A DNA stretch of 64,000 nt from Prochlorococcus sp. AG-402-M15. Its GTDB lineage: Bacteria; Cyanobacteriota; Cyanobacteriia; PCC-6307; Cyanobiaceae. The stretch is from positions 62,001 to 126,000 of the forward strand of contig QCIP01000004.1 of NCBI GenBank assembly GCA_003216615.1. The letters are read 5' to 3'. The position numbers and the translations under genes are program-made. This document shows, one piece after another, positions 5,025 through 22,294 of the stretch. The notes beneath the pieces were generated by a model. It made no database searches. It saw nothing but the letters and a program-made list of their open reading frames with translations, and was not told the origin of the DNA. The first letter of the stretch is position 1, and each line of letters opens with the position of its first letter.

Positions 5025-5582
5025 ATGGAACAATCCATTATCGAAAAAACAGTTCATACTATCAAGGGCAGAAGCATATTTTTAATAGGAATGATGGGTT
5101 CTGGTAAGTCACAAACTGGTTTGAAGTTGGCTGAATTATTGAAGTATAAATACATTGATTTAGATTCATTAATAGAGAAGTTGGCAAAAAAATCTATCAA
5201 TCAAATTTTTAATGATGAAGGAGAAGAAAATTTCCGTGAATTAGAAGCAAACTGCCTCAAAGAAACTATCAAAATTCCTTCATTAGTAATCTCAACTGGG
5301 GGAGGAATAGTTACCAAATCGGAAAACTGGGGAATCTTAAGACAGGGAATAATTGCTTGGATAGATCTCGATAAAGATATAGCAATTGAAAGATTGAAAA
5401 ATGAAATTGAAAACAGGCCACTACTTAAGGGAAAGAATTTAAATGATTTATATATGAGCATTTTTCAAACTAGAGAAAATTTGTATTCTCAAGCAGATTT
5501 AAGAATTCAGGTAAAAAGGGAAAATATTGAAGAAGTTGCTATGAAAATAATCAATGCAATTCATAAAGAAATAATTAGTTAA
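5025..5582 (+). CDS. aroK: Shikimate kinase
   Basis: This enzyme phosphorylates shikimate in the common aromatic pathway. The P-loop lies at residues 22-29 (GMMGSGKS), the shikimate-binding DxD at Asp45/Asp47, and the conserved Gly-Gly-Gly substrate loop near residue 91. The 185-residue length is normal. It is a single-gene unit divergent from the PTPS gene 50 bases away, and its stop overlaps the stop of the convergent CRR7-like gene by 4 bases. trpB, another aromatic-pathway gene, lies far away in this window. Confidence 0.95.
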   Translation: MEQSIIEKTVHTIKGRSIFLIGMMGSGKSQTGLKLAELLKYKYIDLDSLIEKLAKKSINQIFNDEGEENFRELEANCLKETIKIPSLVISTGGGIVTKSENWGILRQGIIAWIDLDKDIAIERLKNEIENRPLLKGKNLNDLYMSIFQTRENLYSQADLRIQVKRENIEEVAMKIINAIHKEIIS

Positions 5583-5836
5583 TCTGGTTCAATTCTTACT
5601 GCAAACCATTTGATAACGTATCCTAATTTTATTTCTAATTCATAAGTGCTTTCCAACAATTCTTCAAAAAATTCCTGATCAGGATCTTCTATATTTTGAT
5701 ATATTGTTTGTGTTTCTGTCTTACTAAGCCAATTCTTTAACCATAAAATTGCTTCTTGCTTTGATACAATTTTTTCTTTTGAATCTGGCTCTAGTAATAC
5801 ATAATGATCTGATGCTCTTATTAGTGGATTTGACAT
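5579..5836 (-). CDS. CRR7-like protein (possible NDH-1 assembly factor)
   Basis: This is an 85-residue, acidic, soluble protein. The N-terminal 'DHYVLLE' strand followed by an amphipathic helix ending 'WLKNWL' resembles the CRR7 family (formerly DUF3571). In plants CRR7 is needed to assemble the chloroplast NDH complex. Several NDH-1 subunit genes are in this window, including ndhO 8 kb away. The start codon at 5834-5836 is separated by a single base from the start of the divergent exported-protein gene, so the promoter must lie inside that neighbour. Family assignment is from memory. Confidence 0.55.
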   Translation of the reverse strand: MSNPLIRASDHYVLLEPDSKEKIVSKQEAILWLKNWLSKTETQTIYQNIEDPDQEFFEELLESTYELEIKLGYVIKWFAVRIEPD

Positions 5837-5837
5837 A

Positions 5838-6545
5838 ATGAAAATTCTTCTTGGATTAATTCTTTGCTTGACTTTTCAAGGAATTTTTTTAGAAAGTTCT
5901 TTCGCTCTAGTAGATTCTAACGTACGAGAGTTTTTGGAAAATCGTGTAAATCAATGGCCAGAATTATATTTGCCAAATTTTCAATTATCTGAAACTTCTA
6001 AAGATTTAATTTATCCTAAATGGTTCGAGGGGAATTGGCTTGTTACCTCTCAAGATATAATTAATGATTCGGAAGAGCCAGTTATTTATAAAGTAAATTT
6101 CTTTAAGAATGATTCAGATTTAATTGTTGGTAATCGTGCAAAAAATTCTGAATCTATTGGAAAAGCAATATTTGGTGACACCTTAATCAAGGTTGTAAAT
6201 GATCCTCAATCAATTAATAATCAAATTATTTATTTAAAAGATGATTTTTATATTGATTCAAGAATTACAGGGAGAAATCAGATACAAGATGATGATATTT
6301 TTTTCGCAGATGAGCTAGTTATACAAACAGCGCATAAGCCAGGTGCTTCAAGGATTAATCAGGTAGAGACAATTAGTCAATTTCAAAAATGTTCCGAAGA
6401 AATATTGGAAGTTAATAATTCAATCAAACCATCAATTTGTGGAGTGCAATATGTCGCTTCTTATGGTTCAAAAGTTGGTGATCATTCTATTCATGCTATT
6501 AAAACAAAAAAATATAAATTGACTTTTGAATTTATTGAGAGTTAG
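5838..6545 (+). CDS. Exported conserved cyanobacterial protein (DUF6816-like)
   Basis: This 235-residue protein has an N-terminal signal peptide: a charged start, a hydrophobic core at residues 3-20, and a small-residue cleavage region ending 'SFA' near residue 23. The mature part has 'WPELYLPNF' and 'YPKWFEGNW' motifs, seen in thylakoid-lumen-type conserved proteins of cyanobacteria and plastids, probably of the DUF6816 family. It is likely periplasmic or lumenal, with a lipocalin-like beta-rich fold as a guess. Cysteines near positions 188 and 200 could form a disulfide. The function is unknown. Its 3' end overlaps the convergent GST gene by 14 bases. Confidence 0.6.
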   Translation: MKILLGLILCLTFQGIFLESSFALVDSNVREFLENRVNQWPELYLPNFQLSETSKDLIYPKWFEGNWLVTSQDIINDSEEPVIYKVNFFKNDSDLIVGNRAKNSESIGKAIFGDTLIKVVNDPQSINNQIIYLKDDFYIDSRITGRNQIQDDDIFFADELVIQTAHKPGASRINQVETISQFQKCSEEILEVNNSIKPSICGVQYVASYGSKVGDHSIHAIKTKKYKLTFEFIES

Positions 6546-7257
6546 CACTAAAAAGATATTCTTCTAGGTTGTTCCTCCACATGAAAAGATTTTCTAGATA
6601 AGGGTTATTTATGTATTCTTGACTCCCCTCTCCTGAAAGAATTGGCCCTGCAGACTTGGGAAATTTAAGAAGGGATAATTGAGCTGCAATTGAAATATCT
6701 GCAATTGATAAACTATCTCCAACTAAATATTTTTTGTTTATCAAGGCTTTTGATAAAGATTCCAGTAATTTTTGGAGTTCTAAATTATCTTTAGAAGACA
6801 AAACTACATTAGAGATTTTGCTAAGATTTTCAAAAGGTAATTTATCAACAATACTTTTAACTGAAGAAGGTATTTCATCTGGAAGTAATGCAGTTCTTAG
6901 CTGTGGATTTTCTATTGCAGATTTTATTAAAGCTTTTCTACAAGTTTTAGCCATTGTTGTATCTGCCCAGTCTTCAATGAGTTTGCATTGTGCAAATAAT
7001 ATTGGGTCCTCAGGAAAAAGTGGATTGTTATCATTTTTTTTATCTATATATTCGCAAATAGTTGAAGAGTCATTAACAATTTGATCATTACTATCGACTA
7101 TTACAGGGACTTGTTTTTGACCTGATAATTTAAAGATTTCAAATTGACCTATACCAGGTGTGACTTCTTCAACTCGATATTGTAGTTTTTTTGCATGAAG
7201 AGCCATTCTTGTTTTTAAACAAAAAGCACTATGCCTAAATTGATATAATGTAATCAT
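6532..7257 (-). CDS. Glutathione S-transferase family protein
   Basis: This is a two-domain GST of 241 residues. The N-terminal thioredoxin-like fold (residues 1-80) carries a possible active-site Cys13 in 'SAFCLK', the cis-proline motif 'VPVIVD' and the 'DSSTICEYI' segment that contacts the glutathione gamma-glutamyl group. The C-terminal all-helical domain has the usual 'LSIADIS' N-capping motif near residue 185. The substrate is unknown; roles in reductive detoxification or oxidative stress are usual for the family. It stands alone, divergent from the DUF751 gene. Confidence 0.88.
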   Translation of the reverse strand: MITLYQFRHSAFCLKTRMALHAKKLQYRVEEVTPGIGQFEIFKLSGQKQVPVIVDSNDQIVNDSSTICEYIDKKNDNNPLFPEDPILFAQCKLIEDWADTTMAKTCRKALIKSAIENPQLRTALLPDEIPSSVKSIVDKLPFENLSKISNVVLSSKDNLELQKLLESLSKALINKKYLVGDSLSIADISIAAQLSLLKFPKSAGPILSGEGSQEYINNPYLENLFMWRNNLEEYLFSANSQ

Positions 7258-7311
7258 GCTGTTTAATGTTTGTTAAAACTTAGCTAAAAAAGTAATCTAT
7301 TTGTGGAGCTG

Positions 7312-7515
7312 ATGGGCGAATTTTTCTCTAATGTTGCAAGATATCCCAAGTATTTACTATCCATCATTGTTGGGGGACTTGTAGCATTGCTTGAACCTTT
7401 ATTCAAGAATAGATCAAATCCACTCACCATAGTAGGTTTGATATCTTCTGTCTTAAGTGCTTTCATAACTCTTTATTTTGTATTGCAAGCAATGACAAAC
7501 CCAATGAATTTATAA
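7312..7515 (+). CDS. DUF751 / Ycf33-type small membrane protein
   Basis: This 67-residue protein has two transmembrane segments (about residues 12-32 and 38-60) and the 'FFSNVARYPKYLLSI' N-terminal signature of the DUF751 family. I chose the ATG at 7312; a GTG at 7303 in the same frame would add three residues, but GGAG at 7305-7308 looks like part of the leader. It is the first gene of a tight run with rbfA (5-base gap) and hemD, which suggests cotranscription. The function is unknown; plastid homologues (Ycf33) point to the photosynthetic membrane. Confidence 0.75.
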   Translation: MGEFFSNVARYPKYLLSIIVGGLVALLEPLFKNRSNPLTIVGLISSVLSAFITLYFVLQAMTNPMNL

Positions 7516-7520
7516 TTATA

Positions 7521-7913
7521 ATGCCAAAAAATTACCGTCTTGCAAAAGTTTCTTCTCTTTTGATGAAAGAAATAACCCTTATTTTACAAAATGATTTGGA
7601 TAATGATCTTATTAGAGATTATTTCGTCAATATTTCTAAGATTGATTTATCAGGTGATTTGCAACACTGTAAAATTTACATAACTTCAACTGCTCAAGAT
7701 AAAGTGAGGAAAGAGATTGTGGCAAATTTGAATACTGCTAAAAGCTCCATAAGGCACAGTTTAGGAAAAAGAATAGAGATGAGAAGAGTTCCAGAGATAA
7801 TTTTTAAAGACGATGTTGTTCTTGATAAAGGATTATCAGTCTTGAAACTTCTCGATGAATTAAAAAATAAAAATCAAAAAAATAATGTTGAGGACACGGA
7901 TGCCAATAGTTGA
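7521..7913 (+). CDS. rbfA: Ribosome-binding factor A
   Basis: RbfA is a KH-fold protein that binds the 30S subunit and helps mature the 5' end of 16S rRNA, notably in the cold. The 130-residue length is normal. The N-terminal helix 'RLAKVSSLLMKEITLIL', the 'LQHCKIYIT' strand and the 'MRRVPEIIFKDD' motif are characteristic. It overlaps the chosen start of hemD by 14 bases, so the two are probably translationally coupled. Confidence 0.94.
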   Translation: MPKNYRLAKVSSLLMKEITLILQNDLDNDLIRDYFVNISKIDLSGDLQHCKIYITSTAQDKVRKEIVANLNTAKSSIRHSLGKRIEMRRVPEIIFKDDVVLDKGLSVLKLLDELKNKNQKNNVEDTDANS

Positions 7914-8697
7914 TCTACCCCTTGATCAAAGAAATATAATTATTACGCGATCAAAAGAAGGGATATTAGATATAAGAAAGATATTCACAAGCAAGGGCGC
8001 TAATGTATTTGATTTGCCTGCAATAAGCATTGGAGATCCTGATGATTTGAATCCTCTTGACGAAGCATTAAATCAAATAAATGATTTTCATTGGATTATT
8101 TTTTCCAGTAGTAATGGGATCAAATTTGTGGATAAAAGACTGAGATACTTTAATAGTTCATTAAAAGAGAGTTCTAAAAAAACAAAAATCGCTGTAGTCG
8201 GAGAAAAAACCTCAAAAACTCTTGATGATTTTGGGATCAAGGCTGATTTCATACCTCCAGAATTTGTTGCTGAAAGTTTAATTGATAATTTCCCAGTATC
8301 TGGTTATGGACTTCGAGTCTTTGTACCAAGAGTTCAAACAGGTGGTAGGGATCTAATTGCAGATCAATTTAGAAAGTCTGGTTCACGTGTTTTTGAGGTT
8401 GCTGCATATGAAACAAGATGTCCTGAATCAATTCCGGAAGAAACAATTGATATTATTTCTAATCGAAAAGTCGATGCAATTATTTTCTCAAGCGGTAAAA
8501 CCGTATCAAATTCTGCTTTTTTACTAGAAAAAAAACTTGGTCAACAATGGTTAGAATATTTTGATCAAATTAAGTTGTTAACTATTGGACCTCAGACAAC
8601 AAAAATATGTAACAAGATTTTTGGAAGAGTTGATAGTCAGGCACAAAAATATACTTTTGAGGGACTACTAGATGTAGCAATTAATATTTTTAGTTAG
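7900..8697 (+). CDS. hemD: Uroporphyrinogen-III synthase
   Basis: HemD cyclises hydroxymethylbilane to uroporphyrinogen III, the shared precursor of heme and chlorophyll. The sequence shows the two-lobed pattern of the family: 'IIITRSKEG' at the start, 'IIFSSSNGI' in the first lobe and 'DAIIFSSGKTVSN' with 'LLTIGPQTTKI' in the second. I chose the ATG at 7900 because GAGG at 7890-7893 is well placed before it; an ATG at 7885 would add five residues. With chosen starts it has 265 residues. It overlaps the end of rbfA. chlM elsewhere in the window works later in the same pigment pathway. Confidence 0.9.
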   Translation: MPIVDLPLDQRNIIITRSKEGILDIRKIFTSKGANVFDLPAISIGDPDDLNPLDEALNQINDFHWIIFSSSNGIKFVDKRLRYFNSSLKESSKKTKIAVVGEKTSKTLDDFGIKADFIPPEFVAESLIDNFPVSGYGLRVFVPRVQTGGRDLIADQFRKSGSRVFEVAAYETRCPESIPEETIDIISNRKVDAIIFSSGKTVSNSAFLLEKKLGQQWLEYFDQIKLLTIGPQTTKICNKIFGRVDSQAQKYTFEGLLDVAINIFS

Positions 8698-9163
8698 AAA
8701 AATTTTTTGTATAGTTCTTTTCAACTAAATCTTTGAACCTATCAATATTGGCCTGTAATTCGTTTGTAACCATTTTGCCTAAAATGTTTTCTTCCATAAA
8801 CCGGGCAATCATTTTAGGTAGCTCATAAGTTATGGCTAAATTTACCGTTGTGATTTGATCAGTTTTACTTTCGAAAACTACTGATCCCTCAGTTGGTAAA
8901 CCTCCTATAGATTTCCATTTAAGTTTGCTGTTTTCGACCCTTTCTGTAATTTGAGCTTTCCATTTAAACCTAAACCCATTTGCAGCCAAAGTCCATTCTG
9001 TTAAATCTGGTAAAGTATTAGTTTCTTCATCAACTGTTTTTACAGATTCAATCCAGCTCATCCAAAGTGACATGGAGTCTAAATCGCTCCATGTATTCCA
9101 AACATTTTCAATAGGCGCATTAACAACTGTTATTACGTCATGTTTTAGCCAAGTACCCATCAA
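8690..9163 (-). CDS. SRPBCC (START-like) family protein beside crtQ
   Basis: This 157-residue protein has the SRPBCC/polyketide-cyclase-like layout: 'VNAPIENVWNTWSDLDS' at the start, a central beta-rich part, and a long C-terminal helix ('NELQANIDRFKDLVE'). Such proteins hold hydrophobic ligands in a deep pocket. Its start lies immediately beside the stop of crtQ with no intergenic gap and it follows crtQ on the same strand. Cotranscription with a carotenoid desaturase suggests it handles a carotenoid or another lipid, which is inference. Its end overlaps hemD by 8 bases. Confidence 0.8.
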   Translation of the reverse strand: MMGTWLKHDVITVVNAPIENVWNTWSDLDSMSLWMSWIESVKTVDEETNTLPDLTEWTLAANGFRFKWKAQITERVENSKLKWKSIGGLPTEGSVVFESKTDQITTVNLAITYELPKMIARFMEENILGKMVTNELQANIDRFKDLVEKNYTKNFSN

Positions 9164-10618
9164 TTAACTTACTGCAAGATTTTTTGCTAATTCTGCTTGT
9201 TTCTCTAAAATTGCAGCAGCAGCTAAATGACCACTCATTGTAGCTCCCTCCATAGAGTCTATGTAATCTTGTTTTGTGTAACTACCAGCCATGAAGAAAT
9301 TAGATATAGATGTTTTTTGATCGGGCCTGAATGGTTCCATACCAGGCGATTCTCTATAGAGTGATTGTGGAATTTGTACTACATTACTCCAAAGTAATTT
9401 AAGGTTTTTTGAGGATGGAAATAGACGACGAACCTCTTTATCTATTTCTTTTGTAATTCTTTCTGTAGATCTTCCCATCCATCTATCGCCGGGAGTTAAA
9501 ACACATTGGAGGAGTGATCCCATATCTTTTTTTCTGTAATCTACAGGACTTGCTAGTGCTAAATCAGCAAAACAACTGAAAGAGGCATCAGCAGAATAAA
9601 GAAGGTTATCTAGTCCAATTGGTGAGTTTCCAGTATTATCTTTTTGTAATTCGGTAACCCAACCGTCGTATCTTAATTGGATTGTGGCAACAGCAACAGC
9701 TCTAAGTTTTTTTAAACCTTCAAATTCTTTAAATTGATACCATTCTTTTGGAATTATTTTTTTTATTCCAGGAACATCACAGGCAGCTAGGAATTTATCT
9801 GCAAATACTGCCTTAATTCCTTCAGGAGAAGATATTTTTAACTGATTAACTGAGTAAGAGGAAGATTCCTTTTCATAAATGATTTCTTCTACCTTATGGT
9901 TAAGATGGATTTTTGCCCCTTTGTTTTTGATGTAGTCGACAATAGGTTGAGTTAACCACTTATGTGGAGAACCTTTTAAAAGATTCAGTTTTGAGGCTTC
10001 TGTTTTTGAAGCAAACATCATGAAGATAGTTAGCATGCATCTTGCTGAAATATCTTTGCAATTAATAAAACCTAAAGCATATGCGATAGGATCCCACATT
10101 CTTTCTAAGCTTTTTTCACTTCCACCATGGTTTAAAAACCATTCTTTAAAACTAATTCTATCTAGATCTCTAATTATTTTCATTGCGCCTTCATAGTCTA
10201 TCAATCCTCTAACTATTGGGCTTGTTCCTAAAGCTAAGGCATTTCTGAACTTATCTACCCAACTAAGTTGTTCAGTGGTAAAAAAAGCTTTTAATCCATT
10301 AAATGGAGCACCCAAGGGAAATTTGAAATCTAAAGATTTTAAATTTCCACCATTATTGATGAATAGATGAGTATGATCTTTCGGGAGTAAATTATCTAAA
10401 GCTCCCACTTTTTTCATTAGTTTAAACAGATTTGCATAATTGTAAAAAAATACATGTAAACCCATTTCTATGTGGTTGCCATCCTTATCTTCCCAACTTC
10501 CTACTTTACCTCCCCAAAATGACCTGCTCTCGAAAATTTCAACTTCGTGACCTTCATCAACTAAATTGACTGCCGCTGTAAGACCAGCTAATCCAGAACC
10601 AACTATTGCGATTTTCAC
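9164..10618 (-). CDS. crtQ: Zeta-carotene desaturase
   Basis: This flavin-dependent desaturase converts 9,9'-di-cis-zeta-carotene to lycopene isomers at the thylakoid membrane. The FAD dinucleotide-binding motif is at residues 7-12 (GSGLAG), followed by an acidic residue at the end of the second strand (E28). The C-terminal flavin motif '[19 protein letters not shown]' near residue 440 is typical of plant-type desaturases. The length of 484 fits Zds. It differs from crtP in this window, which has the phytoene desaturase form. It heads a two-gene unit with the SRPBCC protein. Confidence 0.92.
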
Positions 10619-10693
10619 TTTTTCTTAAAATTATAACAAATCAAGTTTGGATATTGTTTGTTCTATGCATCCTATTGATTAAGTTTTTATATT

Positions 10694-11110
10694 ATGAATA
10701 GTAGTAATCCTTTGTTTATGGAAAATGTAGAAGTTAAACAGGAAATTAAGAATTCTGATGATGGCAAAGGTATCTTAATTACGAATGATGCCATAGAGCA
10801 AATTTCAAATTTATTAAATGGCCAAAGTGATAAAAAAGCACTAAGGGTAGGAGTAAGATCAGGGGGTTGTAGTGGGATGAGTTATACGATGGATTTTATA
10901 GGAAGTAATGAAATAAATCCCGATGATAAAGTTTATGATTATTCATTAAAAGCTGATCAAAGCTTTCAAGTTGTTTGTGATCCTAAAAGTTTATTATATA
11001 TTTACGGAATGCAATTAGATTTTAGTAAGGAATTAATTGGCGGTGGCTTTAATTTTGTAAATCCTAATGCTTCTCAAACTTGCGGTTGTGGAAGCTCTTT
11101 TGCAGTTTAA
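10694..11110 (+). CDS. A-type iron-sulfur carrier protein (IscA/SufA/HesB-like)
   Basis: This 138-residue protein keeps the three cluster-ligand cysteines of A-type carriers: Cys59 in 'GGCSGMSY' and Cys130/Cys132 in the C-terminal 'CGCGSSF'. Such proteins bind Fe-S clusters or iron and pass clusters to target enzymes. The first ~25 residues are a less conserved extension. It lies six bases before a TPR gene on the same strand. A cysteine desulfurase that could supply sulfur is near 60 kb. Confidence 0.92.
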   Translation: MNSSNPLFMENVEVKQEIKNSDDGKGILITNDAIEQISNLLNGQSDKKALRVGVRSGGCSGMSYTMDFIGSNEINPDDKVYDYSLKADQSFQVVCDPKSLLYIYGMQLDFSKELIGGGFNFVNPNASQTCGCGSSFAV

Positions 11111-11116
11111 TTAATA

Positions 11117-11545
11117 ATGAATATGGAAATTAATCCCATTGAAGAGGATTTTAATGAAGCTCTTTCAAGATATAAAGCTGGTCAGGATTTAATTCCTATC
11201 GTTCAAGATTTTCAAAAAATTATACAGCAAATACCAAATCATTTTGCTGCTTGGACTTGTCTATCATGGCTTCAATTACTTCTGAAAAATAATGAAGAAG
11301 CTTTGGCTGCTGCCAGACAAGCTGTTCGATTAAATCAGCAAGATCCACAAGCAAGAATGAATTTGTCTTTGGCTCTTTTAGCTACCAATAATAAAGGTGT
11401 TAGGGATCATATTGAGTTAATAAAAAAAATGTCTATTATGATTCCTGATGTGAAAAGTGAGTTGAAAGAATCTGTTGAAGACGGTTTAAGTAGATATCCA
11501 GATTGGCCTGAGTTGACCAAAGTTAAAAAATGGTTGGAATTTTAA
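11117..11545 (+). CDS. TPR-repeat protein
   Basis: This 142-residue helical protein has at least two TPR-like units: 'HFAAWTCLSWLQLLLKNNEE' type helices at residues 41-62 and 'AARQAVRLNQQDPQARMNL' at 65-85. It lacks a signal peptide. TPR proteins mediate protein-protein contact and the partner here is unknown. An ATG at 11123 is an equally possible start. It lies between the Fe-S carrier gene (6-base gap) and the LpxB-like gene (1-base gap), so the three probably form one transcription unit. Confidence 0.75.
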   Translation: MNMEINPIEEDFNEALSRYKAGQDLIPIVQDFQKIIQQIPNHFAAWTCLSWLQLLLKNNEEALAAARQAVRLNQQDPQARMNLSLALLATNNKGVRDHIELIKKMSIMIPDVKSELKESVEDGLSRYPDWPELTKVKKWLEF

Positions 11546-11546
11546 A

Positions 11547-12758
11547 TTGTTAAAAATTTTAATATTAAGTAATGGGCATGGAGAAGATCTATCTGGGAGT
11601 TTAATAGCTAAGCAATTCGTAAAAAGTGGTTATTCTGTTAATGCTTTGCCAATTGTTGGTAAAGGAAACTATTATGAAAAAGAAAAAATTAAGATTATTG
11701 GAAAAAATAAAGAATTTAGTACTGGAGGAATTGGCTATAATTCTTTTAAGGGAAGATTAACTGAGATATTTGGAGGAGAAATATTTTATCTTCTAAAAAA
11801 ATTATATTTAACTTTTCAAATAAGAAAAAAATATGATTATTTTTTGGTAGTTGGAGATATTGTTCCAGTTTTTTTTGCATGGTTTTGTAAGAAAGATTTT
11901 TTTACATATCTAGTTGCTTATTCCAGTCATTATGAAGGTAAGTTAAAATTACCATGGCCTTCTAAATTTTTCTTGCTCTCACAAAAGGCAAAAACAATAT
12001 ATACCAGAGATTCTCTTACAGCTAATGATTTAACTTTGCAATTAAAAAGGAAAGTATCTTTTTTAGGCAATCCATTTATGGATAAGTTTATTTCTAGAAA
12101 TAAAGAATTAAAGAAATCTGAATTTAGTATTGGATTATTTCCAGGAAGTAGATTCCCCGAGATTTTAGATAATTTTGTTTTGATTTTAGAAGTATTAGAG
12201 GCATTGTCAGATTTAAGATATTTTCAAAAAATTGAGTTTAATTTTGCAATAGTTAATGCTTTATCTTCATCAAAAATAAAGGATATATTTCAAAATAGAG
12301 GATGGTTAAAACTAGAACAAGTAAAAGAGAAGTATCTCTTGAAATTCCAATATAAATCATTAGAAGTGAATATATATTGGAATAATTTTGAAAAAATATT
12401 ATTGAAAAGTATATGCTGTATCAGTATGGCAGGAACGGCAGCAGAGCAAGCGATCGGATTAGGAAAACCTGTAATTCAGATTGAAGGTAAAGGTCCACAA
12501 TTTACAAAATCTTTTGCTGAAGCTCAAAGACGTTTACTTGGAAAATATGTTTTTTGTGCCAGTAATTATAAAAATAAGAATGATCAAATAAACCAGACAA
12601 TAAAATTGATCATAAAAGTAATATATCTAATAAAACTAAATAAGAAGTTTATGATCTCATGTAATGAAAATGCCAAAAAAAGACTGGGTGAAAACAAAGC
12701 TTGTCTTAAAATGGTGGATGATATGAATATTGTTATAAAAAATGACCAAGGAAAATAA
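11547..12758 (+). CDS. Lipid-A-disaccharide synthase-related glycosyltransferase (TIGR03492-like)
   Basis: This 403-residue protein resembles the LpxB-related family found in cyanobacteria. It opens with 'LILSNGHGEDLSG', shows 'FPGSRFPEIL' in mid-sequence and a 'MAGTAAEQAIGLGKPVIQ' donor-site motif near residue 292, as in GT-B glycosyltransferases. The true substrate is unknown and need not be lipid A. The start is a TTG one base after the preceding stop, and the conserved N-terminus begins right there. Its end overlaps the next small membrane gene by 17 bases. Confidence 0.8.
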   Translation: MLKILILSNGHGEDLSGSLIAKQFVKSGYSVNALPIVGKGNYYEKEKIKIIGKNKEFSTGGIGYNSFKGRLTEIFGGEIFYLLKKLYLTFQIRKKYDYFLVVGDIVPVFFAWFCKKDFFTYLVAYSSHYEGKLKLPWPSKFFLLSQKAKTIYTRDSLTANDLTLQLKRKVSFLGNPFMDKFISRNKELKKSEFSIGLFPGSRFPEILDNFVLILEVLEALSDLRYFQKIEFNFAIVNALSSSKIKDIFQNRGWLKLEQVKEKYLLKFQYKSLEVNIYWNNFEKILLKSICCISMAGTAAEQAIGLGKPVIQIEGKGPQFTKSFAEAQRRLLGKYVFCASNYKNKNDQINQTIKLIIKVIYLIKLNKKFMISCNENAKKRLGENKACLKMVDDMNIVIKNDQGK

Positions 12759-17080: not shown

Positions 17081-17090
17081 CATTTTATAT

Positions 17091-17151
<61 letters not shown>

Positions 17152-17162
<11 letters not shown>

Positions 17163-17187
17163 TTCAATAAACGTCAAGAGACTTCAA
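17152..17187 (+). repeat. Left attachment repeat (3' end of tRNA-Asn plus trailer)
   Basis: The 36 bases consist of the last 11 of tRNA-Asn and 25 of trailer, and recur exactly at 18179-18214. Beyond the exact part, similarity continues at the same 1,027-base offset through the terminator and into the DUF805 genes. Confidence 0.85.
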
Positions 17188-17226
17188 GTAACTTCATGCG
17201 ATGTCATATTACTTGAGGTCTTTTTT
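17181..17226. terminator. Intrinsic terminator between tRNA-Asn and the DUF805 gene
   Basis: An 11-bp stem with one G-T pair (17181-17191 with 17210-17220) is followed by a CTTTTTT run ending at 17226. It would stop tRNA-Asn transcription. The sequence at 18208-18253 is the diverged homologue with a poorer stem but the same T-run. Confidence 0.6.
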
Positions 17227-17815
17227 AATCTATATGTTTGCTTAGGATTTGTTTCCTCATGTATTTATATTCCTCTTCATCAATAGTGCCTTTAGTTAAT
17301 AAATCTTCTACTTCAGAAAGTCTGTCTTGCAATGTCATAGGTAACCTTTTTTCTCTTGATGGACTCAAATAGAAAATTAATAATATAATGCCACCAAGAA
17401 AAGGAATTAAACTTATCAGTATCCACCAAGGATTTTTGGCAGCATCTCTCAAACGACGAACTTGAAGAGAAATACTCGGGATTAAAGAAACTGCAGAAAA
17501 ACCATAAATAGATACTAAAATATATGCTCTTATACCAGTCCATTGATAGTAAGTAAAATCATAACCTAATCCATAATTTATATCTAAAAAGAGGGTAATA
17601 CTAATTAGGACTGAAAATAAATATAGTAAAAAAATCAATACTTGAGTAATCCAGAAATCTCTTCTTTTTATTTTGCCGTTGAAATTAAAAGAATATTTCC
17701 AGAACTTTGCTAATCTGCCATCTGGTGGCGTGCCACCAATTTTGTCTCCGGACGTCCCTACTTCAAATCCAGCATAAACAGCAAAACAACATAATAGAAA
17801 AGTGAAGGTAATCAA
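17225..17815 (-). CDS. DUF805-SHOCT membrane protein, copy 1
   Basis: This 196-residue protein has an N-terminal hydrophobic segment, a DUF805 region with about four transmembrane helices (residues 50-155, with 'RRDFWI' and the conserved 'RRLRDAAKNPWW'), and a C-terminal SHOCT domain ('RLSEVEDLLTKGTIDEEEY', 164-182). Such proteins are membrane proteins of unknown function; SHOCT is thought to aid oligomerisation. The start is a TTG; no in-frame ATG exists upstream before a TAA. It lies inside the tRNA-Asn element and its last 80 residues are roughly 88% identical to copy 2. Confidence 0.85.
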   Translation of the reverse strand: MITFTFLLCCFAVYAGFEVGTSGDKIGGTPPDGRLAKFWKYSFNFNGKIKRRDFWITQVLIFLLYLFSVLISITLFLDINYGLGYDFTYYQWTGIRAYILVSIYGFSAVSLIPSISLQVRRLRDAAKNPWWILISLIPFLGGIILLIFYLSPSREKRLPMTLQDRLSEVEDLLTKGTIDEEEYKYMRKQILSKHID

Positions 17816-17882
17816 TTCTCTGATTTAAGTAATTAATATTTTACACATCAGAATTAATTTAAAAACAAAAATGAACCAAACT

Positions 17883-18074
17883 TCACCAATCACTTCTTTT
17901 CCCATCTATCCACTGCTCAATTTGATATTTAAGAAACCCGATTCTTTTGGGAGATAGTTGATGTTTTGGTGGAAAGGTTCCTTTTTCTACTCCGCGATTG
18001 ATAGTTGAAACCGAAAGTCCAATTAGATTTGATACTTCTTTGATGCTCAAAAAATGTCGTTTTTGATAGTCCAT
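17883..18074 (-). CDS. AlpA-family excisionase / phage-type regulator
   Basis: This 63-residue protein is a winged-helix MerR/AlpA-like DNA-binding domain: 'FLSIKEVSNLIGLSVSTINR' forms the helix-turn-helix and 'FPPKHQLSPKRIGF' with 'IEQWIDGK' completes the fold. AlpA proteins regulate or direct excision of integrated elements. It lies about 100 bases from the right attachment repeat, a normal place for xis or alpA, which supports a mobile origin of the 17.15-18.2 kb segment. No integrase is next to it. Confidence 0.85.
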   Translation of the reverse strand: MDYQKRHFLSIKEVSNLIGLSVSTINRGVEKGTFPPKHQLSPKRIGFLKYQIEQWIDGKRSDW

Positions 18075-18089
18075 AATGCGAATAAAATG

Positions 18090-18109
18090 TGTGGCATTTA
18101 TGTGGCATT
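18090..18109. repeat. Tandem TGTGGCATT pair upstream of alpA
   Basis: TGTGGCATT occurs at 18090-18098 and again at 18101-18109, an 11-base period (one helical turn). It lies 16 bases before the alpA start on the minus strand, a good position for an operator or recombination-factor site. Confidence 0.45.
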
Positions 18110-18133
18110 GATTGGATTTTTCCGATTTCTTTA

Positions 18134-18170
18134 CTTCAACCGCAGTCAGAGTGCTTCAAATTCACTTCAA
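18134..18170. promoter_or_regulatory. CTTCAA cluster beside the right attachment repeat
   Basis: CTTCAA occurs at 18134, 18154 and 18165 (the first and last as CTTCAACCG) and again at 18209 inside the repeat. Repeated short sites next to an attachment core are what arm-type recombinase sites look like; this is inference. Confidence 0.3.
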
Positions 18171-18178
18171 CCGACTCT

Positions 18179-18214
18179 CGCCCGGGGAGTTCAATAAACG
18201 TCAAGAGACTTCAA
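18179..18214 (+). repeat. Right attachment repeat (tRNA-Asn 3' fragment)
   Basis: The 36 bases are an exact copy of 17152-17187. The base before it differs (T instead of C) and no tRNA body precedes it, so it is a displaced tRNA end left by integration. Confidence 0.85.
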
Positions 18215-18251
18215 TTAACTGTATGTGATGTCATGCTACTTGGGGTCTTTT

Positions 18252-18905
18252 TTAATCTAAAAATTTAAGAAGTATTTGTTTTCTCATGTATTTATATTCC
18301 TCTTCATCAATAGTGCCTTTAGTTAGTAAATCTTCTACTTCAGAAAGTCTGTCTTGCAATGTCATAGGTAATATTTTTTTTCTTGATGGACTCAGATAGA
18401 AAATTAATAATACAATTCCTCCAATAAACGGAACAAAACTGATAAGAATCCACCACGGGTTTTTGGCGGCATCTCTCAAACGACGTACTTGAAGAGAAAT
18501 AATCGGTATTAAAGTAACTATGGAATACGCATAAATAGGTAAGAAAATATACGGCATTACATTTACATCATTGTTAAATAATGTGCGTTTTAAACCGTAG
18601 AAAACATAAGTACTGTTATTGATGTCTAAAAATAGACAAATCCCTAATAAGACTAGAATAATGATTTTAATTAATAACCATGCCTGAGTAATCCAAAAGG
18701 TTCTTCTTGTTGTAGTACCTCTAAAATCAAAAGAACGTTTCCAGAATTCAATTAAATAAATAAATGAGATTATTGCTAGTTCTTGTTTGAAATGGATACC
18801 AGAATCTTCAATTTTTGCAGCGATTGCAAGAATAACAATTAAACAAAAAATGCAAATAAAAGTTGCTAAAATATGAGTTAATTTCTGGTATTTTATACAT
18901 AAAAA
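18252..18905 (-). CDS. DUF805-SHOCT membrane protein, copy 2 (no canonical start codon)
   Basis: The only in-frame ATG (18557) would give 101 residues and cut the DUF805 domain in half. Translating further upstream, the same frame stays open to a TAA at 18906-18908, and the extra residues continue the homology to copy 1, including 'EFWKRSF', 'FWITQ' and 'LFLDIN' at matching places. I found no ATG, GTG or TTG in this extension. The gene therefore starts at a non-standard codon (ATA/ATT type) or has lost its start and is decaying. The SHOCT domain is intact. Its 3' end sits at a 1,027-base offset from copy 1. Confidence 0.6.
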   Translation of the reverse strand, partial: FLCIKYQKLTHILATFICIFCLIVILAIAAKIEDSGIHFKQELAIISFIYLIEFWKRSFDFRGTTTRRTFWITQAWLLIKIIILVLLGICLFLDINNSTYVFYGLKRTLFNNDVNVMPYIFLPIYAYSIVTLIPIISLQVRRLRDAAKNPWWILISFVPFIGGIVLLIFYLSPSRKKILPMTLQDRLSEVEDLLTKGTIDEEEYKYMRKQILLKFLD

Positions 18906-18922
18906 TTATCTGAAATCAATTA

Positions 18923-20155
18923 TTAAAAACTTTCAATTAATTCTTTGGTTGAATAAATCCCAACAAATGGTGCTGTAATTTCTTTAAGCACGCCTGTAGT
19001 TTTTCCTAACATACTATTTTTAACAGTTATTAAATCTCCTTCTTTTACAAAAGGATTTCTTTTGGAACCTCTTTTTGCTTTTGCATAATATGAAATTGTT
19101 TTCTTTACAACTGTCCCATCTGCTTCGTATCTAATTAAAACTATCTTTCCTGATAAAGGTTTTATTGGTCCAGTCAAATCAATCACATCTGATAATGTAG
19201 CTTCTAAGGGTAATTTTATATTTCCAGGATTTTCGACTCGACCAAAAATATCTACTGTTATGAATTTTGGAGAAATACCACTTAAAACAGATTTTGGAAT
19301 TTGATTTGTGGAAGACTGACTTAATTTTGGAAGAAATATACTATCTCCGTCAAATATACGTAAATCATTACTATCATCTAATTCATTCAAAAAAGAATTT
19401 AGGTTAATAAAAGCTCTTTTTTTGCCTCCACCTTTACCAAGAGGTACATCTCGGATAATTTCTATCCTAGATAAATCAGTTAAGGAAGTTATACCACCTG
19501 CTTTCAGAATAACGTCAGAAATAGTAGTTATATTTTCACTAGTTCTTTTGATATTGAAAGAATTATCTGATGATTGATTACTTGATTCAATCTTGCTCTT
19601 AGCAGTAGGTTTCTTAAGCTGATTCACATTAGAATCAGCATCAATTTGTGATTCTAAGAAAAAGCTTGATGTGTAAGAAGGGAATTTATATAATCCTGGA
19701 TTTCTAACTTCACCTTTAATTGATACTGTCAAAGGCTTAAAAGTTGCAATTCTTACTGTTATATTGGGATATCTAATGAATTCAAAATATTTTTTATTTA
19801 ATAATTTAGATAATTCAGATAGTGTTAAACCTCGAACATAAGTTTCATATATTTCTGGAAGCAATATTTCGCCCTCTGGGTTAACTTCATAATTTCCATT
19901 AAACATTTCCAATTGAAAATCAATTGATAAAACATCACCCGTATCAATTATGTAATCTTGTAACTCTTCTTTAGACTTCAAATAGTCAATTGGAATGTCG
20001 TTTTTATCCTTAGGGTTTGAATTATTACTTTCTGCTTTGGATAAATCAAAAATAAAAAAAGAAATTAAAAAAAAACCAATTAAAAAGGTTTTTGAATTCC
20101 ATTTAAAGGAAAATAATCTTTTAAATTTATTCTCAAGTATATTTTGTAAACTCAA
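18923..20155 (-). CDS. Polysaccharide export protein (Wza-like, Poly_export plus SLBB)
   Basis: This 410-residue envelope protein has a signal segment (hydrophobic residues about 24-40, ending near 'SKAES'). A Poly_export domain follows at 65-145 ('YIIDTGDVLSI', 'EGEILLPEI', 'YPNITVRI'), then SLBB-type beta-grasp units near 147-260 and 285-360. Such proteins form the outer-membrane exit for capsule or exopolysaccharide. No Wzc, glycosyltransferase or polymerase gene is next to it, so it is an orphan within the accessory zone. It may act with a distant polysaccharide cluster. Confidence 0.83.
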   Translation of the reverse strand: MSLQNILENKFKRLFSFKWNSKTFLIGFFLISFFIFDLSKAESNNSNPKDKNDIPIDYLKSKEELQDYIIDTGDVLSIDFQLEMFNGNYEVNPEGEILLPEIYETYVRGLTLSELSKLLNKKYFEFIRYPNITVRIATFKPLTVSIKGEVRNPGLYKFPSYTSSFFLESQIDADSNVNQLKKPTAKSKIESSNQSSDNSFNIKRTSENITTISDVILKAGGITSLTDLSRIEIIRDVPLGKGGGKKRAFINLNSFLNELDDSNDLRIFDGDSIFLPKLSQSSTNQIPKSVLSGISPKFITVDIFGRVENPGNIKLPLEATLSDVIDLTGPIKPLSGKIVLIRYEADGTVVKKTISYYAKAKRGSKRNPFVKEGDLITVKNSMLGKTTGVLKEITAPFVGIYSTKELIESF

Positions 20156-20199
20156 AAGATTGCAAAAATAAACAGAATTAAAACTATCTTACTATTAAT

Positions 20200-20448
20200 C
20201 TAGATAAATAGATAACTAGATAAATAAATATCTAGATAATATATTTGTTTATTGTTGTTTTTTTCAAGTTTGGTAATTATTTTTTCAATTTCTAAGAGCT
20301 TTTCTTCAATAGTCTTCATACCGTCTTTACTCATTGGACTTACATATTGCTGAAGAATACTCGATATGTATTCTCCAAGTGCTTTACCTTCTTTTGTCGA
20401 TTGAACTTTTAAATTTTTTAATAAATCAGCATTGATATTGATATTTAA
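20200..20448 (-). pseudogene. Decayed ribbon-helix-helix (CopG/Arc-type) gene
   Basis: A frame of 82 codons is open between stops at 20449-20451 and 20200-20202 but has no usable start codon at its head. Its N-terminal half reads 'INADLLKNLKVQSTKEGKAL' and then 'EYISSILQQYV', the strand-helix-helix pattern of CopG/ParG-like DNA-binding proteins. A different frame just upstream reads 'ELKKNII', as expected for the missing N-terminus, so a single frameshift is likely. A coiled Glu/Lys-rich tail follows, and the stop falls within an 8-base tandem repeat. RHH proteins usually act as antitoxins or plasmid regulators; no partner is visible. Confidence 0.5.
20201..20240. repeat. 8-base tandem repeat (TAGATAAA-type, five units)
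   Basis: Five 8-base units run from 20201 to 20240: four begin TAGATAA and one (20225-20232) is degenerate. The array covers the 3' end of the decayed RHH frame. Since 8 is not a multiple of 3, unit gain or loss would shift that frame. Confidence 0.65.
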
Positions 20449-20451
20449 TTA

Positions 20452-20757
20452 TGTTCTTTTTTAATTCATATATTTTGTGAGTTTCTTTTTTGTTAAAAAG
20501 TGGTTAGTCGAATATATATATGTGGGTAAATTTAATGTATTATTAAAATCAGTAAATAGAACATCAAAATTAATTTAATAATCTTATGAAAATATTATTT
20601 TAGTAACTATAATTACATGTTTTAATAACAGTATTTAGAACATTTATAAAATTCTTTAAATAAACAAAAAAATAAGATCTTTAATTTATTTGTACGTTCC
20701 ATATAATCAAGATATATTTTATGTTTTTACAGTCTGAATTACGCCTTTCAGGAAATT
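20452..20757. other. AT-rich intergenic stretch with no gene seen
   Basis: This roughly 300-base stretch has no convincing frame on either strand, no RNA structure I can support, and no clear repeat apart from two loosely similar 'AAATAGAACAT'/'ATTTAGAACAT' words at about 20555 and 20632. It separates the RHH remnant from the next minus-strand gene. Confidence 0.5.
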
Positions 20758-21117
20758 CTAGTCATTCCACATATCCTTTTTCTCTTGATCTAAATTATTT
20801 CTTTCAATTAATTCTATTCTTTGTTTCTGAGAATCTAATTCTGTTTCAAAACCGTTTTTCTCGTCAATGTAATTTGTTTTTATTTCTAGGATAATTATCT
20901 CAAATTGCTCTCCAAAAAAATCTGACATTTCTCTCCATGCTTCCATTTCTTCTTCTTTGTCAATAGTATCGTTTATTTGATGAGAAATAATTTCTTGTAC
21001 ATATTGTCTAAGCTCTTGATGACTCATAGATTCAACTTTTTTTTGAATATAAAATTCTTTAATTTTTTCTAGTTGTTTTTTTGATAAATCAGAATAGATA
21101 AATGATTTTTTTTTCAT
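20758..21117 (-). CDS. Unknown charged coiled-coil protein
   Basis: This 119-residue protein is very rich in Glu, Lys and Gln and is predicted almost wholly helical. Residues 10-60 ('SKKQLEKIKEF', 'SMSHQELRQYVQEIISHQI') and 85-115 look like coiled-coil segments, and there is no signal peptide or membrane helix. I think similar proteins occur in several copies in picocyanobacteria, but I cannot name a family. It sits in the accessory zone just upstream of rpaA, on the other strand, and its function is not inferable from context. Confidence 0.65.
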   Translation of the reverse strand: MKKKSFIYSDLSKKQLEKIKEFYIQKKVESMSHQELRQYVQEIISHQINDTIDKEEEMEAWREMSDFFGEQFEIIILEIKTNYIDEKNGFETELDSQKQRIELIERNNLDQEKKDMWND

Positions 21118-21511: not shown

Positions 21512-22294
21512 ATGAAAATTTCAATCCTTTTAATTGAAGATGATCGTGATATGCGAGATTTGGTGGCTAGGCATTTAGAACATTCTGGGTTCGATGTACA
21601 AAAAGCTGAAGATGGCATTAAAGGACAAGCATTAGCCCTTCAATACTCACCAGATTTAATACTCTTAGATTTAATGCTTCCAAGTGTTGATGGATTAACT
21701 TTATGCCAGCGTCTTAGAAGAGATGAAAGAACTTCAAATATCCCAATTTTGATGATAACTGCATTAGGTGGCCTTAAAGATAAAGTGACTGGGTTTAATT
21801 CTGGAGCAGATGATTACATTACTAAACCCTTCGATCTAGAAGAATTACATGTACGTATAAAAGCATTATTAAGAAGAACCAACAGAGCACAATTGAATTC
21901 TAGTAACCAGCAAGAAATACTAAATTATGGCCCTTTAACTCTTGTTCCGGAAAGATTTGAAGCTATCTGGTTTGAATCTCCTGTTAGATTAACCCATCTT
22001 GAATTTGAATTGCTTCACTGTCTCTTGCAGAGACATGGTCAAACTGTATCGCCAGCATTAATTCTTAAAGAAGTTTGGGGATATGAACCTGATGATGATA
22101 TTGAGACCATAAGAGTTCATATTAGACACTTACGCACTAAATTAGAACCTGATCCACGTAAGCCTATATATATAAAAACTGTATATGGTGCTGGATATTG
22201 TCTTGAGTTACCTATTGGTTCTAAAGTTGAAGTTGCTAGGCAAGAGTTTATTCAAGCAAGAAATCCTAATTTGATAAATTCTGCCGTAGATTAA
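21512..22294 (+). CDS. rpaA: OmpR-type response regulator RpaA
   Basis: RpaA is the main output regulator of the cyanobacterial circadian clock, phosphorylated by SasA. The receiver domain (residues 1-120) has the phospho-acceptor Asp53 and the switch lysine in 'DDYITKPF'. The winged-helix domain (about 140-235) contains '[21 protein letters not shown]' type motifs and '[19 protein letters not shown]', which I recognise as RpaA rather than RpaB. A short tail follows. It is a single-gene unit with a long 5' spacer; its stop overlaps that of the convergent holB. Confidence 0.92.

Follow-up and report, generated by a model that had tools for sequence, protein, structure and literature searches.

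A probable minimal integrative cassette lacking its own integrase at the tRNA-Asn gene of Prochlorococcus

The segment at positions 17152-18178 of the window, the whole 64-kb stretch of Prochlorococcus DNA that was analysed, is probably a minimal non-autonomous integrative cassette, which, judging from its sequence, would be moved by a recombinase acting in trans with an AlpA-like protein as directionality factor, and would accrete in tandem with others of its kind. Its att-bounded structure, the empty sites, its recurrence elsewhere, an attachment-site architecture common to cassettes with varied cargo and a similarity that crosses lineages were established by comparison with relatives. The window belongs to an assembly of 1.6 Mb in 26 contigs (genome G000), and the relatives named, among them AG-355-M18 (G071) and AG-670-O17 (G199), are single-cell records of Prochlorococcus. 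The features of the region are as follows.

17090..17163, forward strand: tRNA-Asn(GTT), the integration target (ARAGORN), intact
17152..17187, forward strand: putative att1, 36-nt repeat that takes in the final 12 nt of tRNA-Asn; core CGCCCGGGGAGTT
17165..17230, forward strand: right arm of att1, TCA at +9, +19, +29 and +39 after the 13-nt core, T run at the end
17225..17815, reverse strand: left DUF805 copy, a membrane-protein gene carried by cassette 1 as cargo (PF05656, 67.8 bits; PHROG 12855, membrane protein)
17883..18074, reverse strand: alpA-like gene, putative recombination directionality factor (PF05930, 37.2 bits; PHROG 66)
18119..18178, forward strand: left arm of att2, TCA at -43, -33 and -23 from the core, in the same phase as in other sites
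18179..18214, forward strand: putative att2, shared by cassette 1 (distal end) and cassette 2 (proximal end)
18252..18905, reverse strand: DUF805 right copy, cargo of the decayed cassette 2 (open frame; first ATG/GTG/TTG at 18557)
18904..20226, reverse strand: separate island segment (84.7% identity to G068 at its tRNA-Asn island), with an SLBB gene inside
20456..20757, no strand: host flank, homologous to empty sites
20758..21117, reverse strand: DUF7326 gene (profile match), right boundary of the island
21512-22294: rpaA-like response regulator, after DUF7326

ARAGORN found one tRNA in the whole 64-kb window, and since it places tRNA-Asn at 17090-17163, the exact 36-nt repeat (17152-17187 = 18179-18214, offset 1,027) contains the final 12 nt of this gene, followed by 24 nt past the gene end; this confirmed the first-pass annotation, which had reported a 36-base repeat with the tRNA-Asn 3′-end at 17152 and 18179. 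Further copies of the first 14 nt of the repeat (at most 1 mismatch, both strands, 64-kb window) were not found beyond these two, and the 36-nt exactness together with this result ruled out a chance repeat. The tRNA-Asn sequence is identical over 74/74 nt in the five relatives G071, G199, G103, G229 and G202, in agreement with the proposal that integration restores the tRNA. Around the repeat, a 300-nt repeat family at 17145/18172 has 88% identity. The similarity had been described as continuing past the repeat at one offset with no indels; it is gap-free at +1,027 until it declines near 17530, but the next block, 17631-17704 / 18673-18746 (73%), sits at +1,042, and therefore a 15-nt shift lies further in. 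A terminator had also been placed in this continuation, and a T run indeed ends the stretch, but a simple scan of 17100-18400 flagged no terminator behind tRNA-Asn.

Cassette 1 consists of att, DUF805, alpA and att over about 1,027 bp (1,026 from core start to core start), and DUF805 and alpA are the two genes identified between the two cores. The 63-aa product of 17883-18074 passed the AlpA profile with 37.2 bits against a cut-off of 21, its PHROG being annotated as excisionase and transcriptional regulator, so that the AlpA-like gene noticed inside the element beside the right repeat is borne out. The two genes had been called DUF805-SHOCT; both open reading frames passed the DUF805 cut-off of 25.7 bits (67.8 and 63.6), but both proteins stayed under that of SHOCT (PF09851; 15.4 vs 27 bits). 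Relatives of DUF805 in PHROG 12855 are membrane proteins of the moron class, and one may guess that the protein has an envelope effect useful to the element or the host. The tyrosine recombinase profile PF00589 had no match in the window island or on contig C4 of the window genome, in line with the integrase noted as absent from the element, and a search with one query protein found in the window island no integrase of the type carried by the G050 island L048. The att-bounded structure upholds the view that the element is small and brings a DUF805 gene of its own, placed next to its tRNA-Asn attachment site.

A region search against 200 genomes of the genus matched 195, and among the matches listed most end near the tRNA end. 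From among the matches listed, 120 loci were fetched, partly chosen for interest, and therefore the fractions below do not describe a random sample. Eight of the 120 loci were not closed by DUF7326; the bounded islands, including the window, numbered 113, with 44 shorter than 380 bp, 13 of 380-900 bp and 56 of at least 900 bp. Two further loci, L158 (G229) and L160 (G202), were added by hand for their DUF805 genes and enter the TCA, flank, segment and identity counts. An internal core with at most 1 mismatch is present in 44/113 islands and in 40/56 large ones. Of the 44 short islands (<380 bp), 43 have no internal core, the exception being L125. The interval from tRNA-Asn to DUF7326-rpaA is thus occupied to very different extents and is an integration hot spot in Prochlorococcus; as the first-pass annotation had hoped to see on comparing the tRNA-Asn to rpaA interval, empty sites and genomes with a single DUF805 both exist. 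Among islands with an internal core (at most 2 mismatches), the flank to the right of the last core aligned to an empty site over at least 70 nt from the core in 28/56, and such an alignment of at least 70 nt was obtained on the tRNA side in 3/56, which is the pattern predicted by site-specific insertion at the tRNA end. At a looser threshold of E<1e-3, the counts were 41/56 to the right of the last core and 24/56 on the tRNA side, and the last cores of the remaining 15/56, the window included, had no empty-site match. In the window, homology to empty-site flanks starts at 20456 at the earliest and near 20485 in most alignments, and neither the last att nor the initial ~45 nt of the host flank was found in alignments to empty sites.

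The same DUF805-alpA layout occurs at this site in four other genomes (0.97-1.06 kb), with a longer variant in a fifth. Measured from core start to core start, the att-bounded cassettes are 972 bp in G103, 1,023 bp in G229 and 1,061 bp in G202, where the cassette is the second in its island and is followed by an empty-site-like flank; G199 has two such segments of 993 and 1,047 bp, the longer of which is damaged. The longer variant, in G071, consists of a DUF805 gene with one stop, a piece of alpA, two extra open reading frames and then a full alpA. The cargo of other alpA cassettes differs: L038 and L039 encode a 123-aa protein that matches nothing in Pfam, L040 a DNA methylase next to a 398-aa protein, L049 a zinc-ribbon protein and L043 a nuclease-like one. 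In total, 73 att-to-att segments were delimited, cores with two mismatches being counted on condition that a phased TCA stood in the arm; their median length is 1,090 bp and 47 are at most 1.5 kb. Among them, alpA was found in 25 and not detected in 48, 22 carry alpA and no L048-type integrase, and 4 carry this integrase or a remnant of it. The distribution of alpA was further assessed in 56 whole genomes, which were chosen for island cores and did not include G011 (L114; alpA, no core): PF05930 gave 24 matches in 19 genomes, and 22/24 lie inside the tRNA-Asn island (20 by coordinates, of 22, plus those of G229 and G202 inside L158 and L160). A search of 50,697 phage records gave no match, and viral contigs gave only five distant AlpA relatives (38-39%); both results count against the favoured reading, as do the 48 segments in which alpA was not detected.

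The cassettes with other cargo have in common with that of the window not only alpA but also an att site in which TCA recurs every 10 bp, and the right arm at 17165..17230 is 95% identical to that of the L038 cassette with its different cargo. At 61 internal sites with at most 1 core mismatch, TCA stands at -43, -33, -23 and -13 in 38, 50, 28 and 12, respectively. When the comparison was confined to 24 arms less than 70% alike, 43 TCAs fell on the phased positions, compared with 2.1 on average and never more than 8 when the arms were shuffled 2000 times, and three or four phased TCAs were present in 9/24 arms versus 18/1160 control stretches from islands. At the tRNA, the right arm had at least two phased TCAs in 24/58 occupied islands versus 2/44 short ones. 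The signal is thus clearest on the left arm and weaker on the right arm. Such 10-bp-phased repeats beside a short core may represent the arm sites of a tyrosine-recombinase system.

Elements that carry an integrase, which had been suggested as worth looking for, do exist at the tRNA-Asn site (L048, L068, L133). L048 in G050 is a 7.1-kb element, from the tRNA end to +7090, in which integrase and alpA occur together; its integrase is a Phage_int_SAM_3 match that PF00589 misses. An additional L048-type integrase is present in L130, whose island is not closed, and PF00589 matches lie inside the tRNA-Asn island, by coordinates, in 2/56 genomes (G082 and G180); these counts derive from one query protein and PF00589, by which other families may be missed. 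L094 spans 3.2 kb and retains the two termini of the L048 element (551 and 116 nt, 89-93%), so that it looks like a deletion derivative of this type, as do, by their left ends, L053 and L112. Elsewhere in the window genome, L174 (G000:C13:15000-28000) holds at 5135-12192 an integrative element with a 457-aa integrase, a serine resolvase and a DUF5906 protein with weak primase similarity; no tRNA was found in this stretch and no PF05930 match in the element. Away from the tRNA-Asn island, L175:1427-2596 (G000:C5) encodes a 389-aa tyrosine recombinase, and a tyrosine recombinase frame of 386-398 aa is present in 46/56 genomes, called one gene by length only. The L048-like integrase, the C13 integrase and the 386-398-aa tyrosine recombinase are candidate recombinases.

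The integrase-bearing elements at the same site and the apparent derivatives L094, L053 and L112 speak for an alternative that we consider unlikely, namely that the cassettes are dead, immobile remnants of larger integrase-bearing elements, in the manner of decayed tycheposons or CIMEs, which lost the integrase after integration and in which cargo and alpA would persist by chance or selection. The decay of cassette 2 in the window and the stop in the G071 copy fit such an origin as well. However, the 1-kb DUF805-alpA layout with both cores is found in five genomes including the window, alpA and the arm are kept beside unrelated cargo, and alpA and the arm match G199 better than core genes do. 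Because the layout is recurrent and alpA and its arm stand beside unrelated cargo, independent decay would hardly have produced the cassettes.

The descent of the cassettes was compared with that of core genes. Against the distant G199, identities are 74.7% for the ABC gene, 77.8% for a 93-aa ORF, 71.8% for DUF7326, 82.8% for rpaA and 68.8% for holB, and they rise to 90.0% for alpA, 92.0% for the arm and 92.7% for the right arm plus SHOCT end. Against G103, the flanking genes reach 86-91% and the remainder of DUF805 69.0%. Since the cassettes depart from core-gene similarity, transfer between lineages would be the simplest reading of these comparisons. It is opposed by the alpA genes of G071, G103, G229 and G202 (84.7-88.9%), which are about equal to or below core genes, the excess similarity of alpA and arm over core genes being confined to G199.

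Homologous recombination has left its mark on the cassettes. In five windows of the alignment the left DUF805 copy is 91-97% identical to that of G071. Over columns 75-175 this identity drops to 78%, compared with 93% to G199_b and 90% to the right copy (Fisher p 2.6e-6 for this mosaic contrast, with sites that are not independent). The 3′-end of the left copy is recombinant, and therefore homologous recombination also acts here. Together with the similarity to G071, which breaks within alpA and resumes at the second alpA, this mosaic favours the suggestion that recombination in shared stretches (tRNA, right arm, alpA and DUF805 3′-end) spreads the cassettes and that the core matters little. 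As the principal route it is nevertheless improbable, since the boundaries match the 13-nt core in segments otherwise little alike, and match empty sites.

In three windows over the N-terminal parts, the left copy is 43-63% identical to the right copy and 91-95% to that of G071; the mosaic identities therefore imply that the two copies are not a recent duplication and that their shared 3′ part was exchanged or homogenised. A duplication in which the tRNA 3′-end and DUF805 were copied in tandem on the spot and later diverged, which the first-pass annotation had set against its own reading and which the collinear similarity at +1,027 might suggest, was rejected on this three-way comparison as very improbable, given that only the 3′ part is similar, that the left N-terminal part is far closer to G071, that the unit is single in G103, G229 and G202, and that the right copy has no alpA behind it. 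Two DUF805 copies at the tRNA-Asn island occur in G000 and G199 only, and both genomes keep a core between the copies, so that no strain with two DUF805 genes and no tRNA fragment between them, the other objection foreseen, was encountered.

The distal DUF805 copy had been taken for the resident allele of the host, and this part of the earlier interpretation fell. Close DUF805 relatives (E<=1e-44) were found in 7/266 genomes of the genus, many of them incomplete, and six of the seven lie at the tRNA-Asn island; since such relatives are rare and concentrated at the island, an older cassette is the best interpretation of the distal copy. This reading also follows from its start, the first in-frame ATG/GTG/TTG lying halfway in at 18557 and leaving 101 of 217 open-frame codons, and from the homology to G068 that begins at 18904. 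Neither alpA nor a distal att of cassette 2 was found behind the right copy, and a deletion join at 18904 may have replaced them. The segment beyond this point carries a polysaccharide-export (SLBB) gene at 18923-20155, island cargo common to the window and G068. In G199 the distal copy is damaged as well, with five stops in DUF805 and one in alpA. An allele swap, in which each integration would set a new DUF805 gene beside the tRNA and displace the host's resident one, accords with an intact proximal and a displaced distal copy, but was rejected as having next to no probability, because no resident gene is seen, close relatives being present in 7/266 genomes and short islands and empty sites being without DUF805. 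The paired genes are best read as cargo of successive arrivals, in which cassettes accrete and nothing host-owned is swapped. Repeated insertion leads one to expect the newest cassette by the tRNA and the oldest outside; proximal copies decay too, as the one in-frame stop in the tRNA-proximal DUF805 of G071 indicates, which counts against a clean order of new proximal and old distal copies. The suggested search for DUF805 beside other tRNAs turned up little: in G105 a weaker relative (38-39%) lies ~1.2 kb from tRNA-Pro, where 12 kb of sequence gave no AlpA match and the surrounding 3.5 kb no att core, and for a close relative in G225 neither a tRNA within 12 kb nor a core within 3.5 kb was found.

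For the recombinase, the role of AlpA and present mobility, which we infer, the favoured reading of a trans-mobilised cassette would run as follows. The circular form would contain left arm, core and right arm in this order. A recombinase would join the circle to the tRNA end, where the 12 nt of the cassette would rebuild the tRNA and older cassettes would be pushed outward. This enzyme would probably be a tyrosine recombinase from elsewhere, either from a same-site element like that of G050 or a resident chromosomal one, acting in trans. AlpA would probably attach to one of the arms and direct the reaction, with excision being the direction favoured by its family (PHROG 66). In the window, a cassette of the same family would already have been in place when the new one integrated on its tRNA-proximal side, and the displaced older one would have been decaying since.

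Several known systems resemble this arrangement in part. In the excerpts of PMC10872708 and PMC10187409 consulted, which describe the tycheposons of Prochlorococcus after Hackl et al. 2023, these elements share with the window cassette the genus, a tRNA-associated integration and a variable cargo; like them, the cassette integrates at a tRNA with a repeated tRNA end, and the same tRNA-Asn hosts the integrase-bearing L048 in G050. Tycheposons, however, are given in the excerpt of PMC10872708 as 4-200 kb long with a tyrosine recombinase, whereas the cassette has 1,027 bp and none. CIMEs, as far as the excerpt of PMC5704250 (citing Pavlovic 2004) presents them, keep both att sites, lack integration and transfer genes and lie in tandem with a relative; the cassette, with its two genes between cores on both sides, likewise has no such genes, and differs from this account in its own alpA and its recurrent one-gene layout. 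The Dehalococcoides ssrA islands, as PMC3146451 describes them, are also tandem units, flanked by pieces of a stable RNA gene and in some cases devoid of an integrase, but use a serine recombinase, unlike the alpA and phased TCA arms here. Similarly, the additive flexible genomic islands of Methylophilaceae have tRNA-end repeats (tRNA-Lys) and a variable island of 330 bp-42 kb, and their description in the excerpt of PMC10872708 does not include the alpA and att anatomy seen in the window. As these sources indicate, there is precedent for units bounded by RNA-gene fragments, for accretion in tandem and for elements that keep both att sites but have no integrase (PMC5704250, PMC3146451, PMC10872708). 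A cassette of 1 kb that recurs at the Prochlorococcus tRNA-Asn with a single gene, alpA and phased arms was found nowhere in the parts of the literature searched, a scope that lay outside the main tycheposon study and gives no proof of absence.

Integron gene cassettes are likewise short units stacked at one site by an enzyme acting in trans. The window cassette resembles them in its short stacked units and, by inference, in the trans enzyme, but its site is a tRNA 3′-end, its units carry their own alpA, and its boundaries are a 13-nt tRNA-derived core with phased arms, unlike attC. A tentative extension, possible at most, is that an integrase-free system exists in which ~1-kb units, each with cargo, its own recombination gene (alpA or a 105-aa protein) and a TCA site phased by the helical turn, are stacked at tRNA-Asn by a trans-acting recombinase, possibly the ~389-aa tyrosine recombinase. 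If true, a streamlined genome would contain a system of gene exchange resembling that of integrons. Prochlorococcus genomes are small and the gene pool of the genus is large; to our knowledge, the routes by which single genes arrive are incompletely known, and the cassette may be a minimal route to gene gain with a borrowed enzyme. At 1 kb, a unit that combines its two att sites with a directionality gene would be about the smallest integrative element imaginable, and its site, with the 13-nt core and 10-bp-phased arms, offers a handle for finding the enzyme. Paired genes beside a tRNA, moreover, need not be a host allele and an invader, as both can be successive cargo.

A second family of cassettes was observed in the same island. 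No alpA was detected in it, and the first 90 aa of the 105-aa protein conserved in the slot of alpA have no Pfam match. The frame of this protein ends 98 bp before the core in 8/8 islands compared (L078, L100, L098, L123, L144, L120, L153 and L081), which have an arm of their own.
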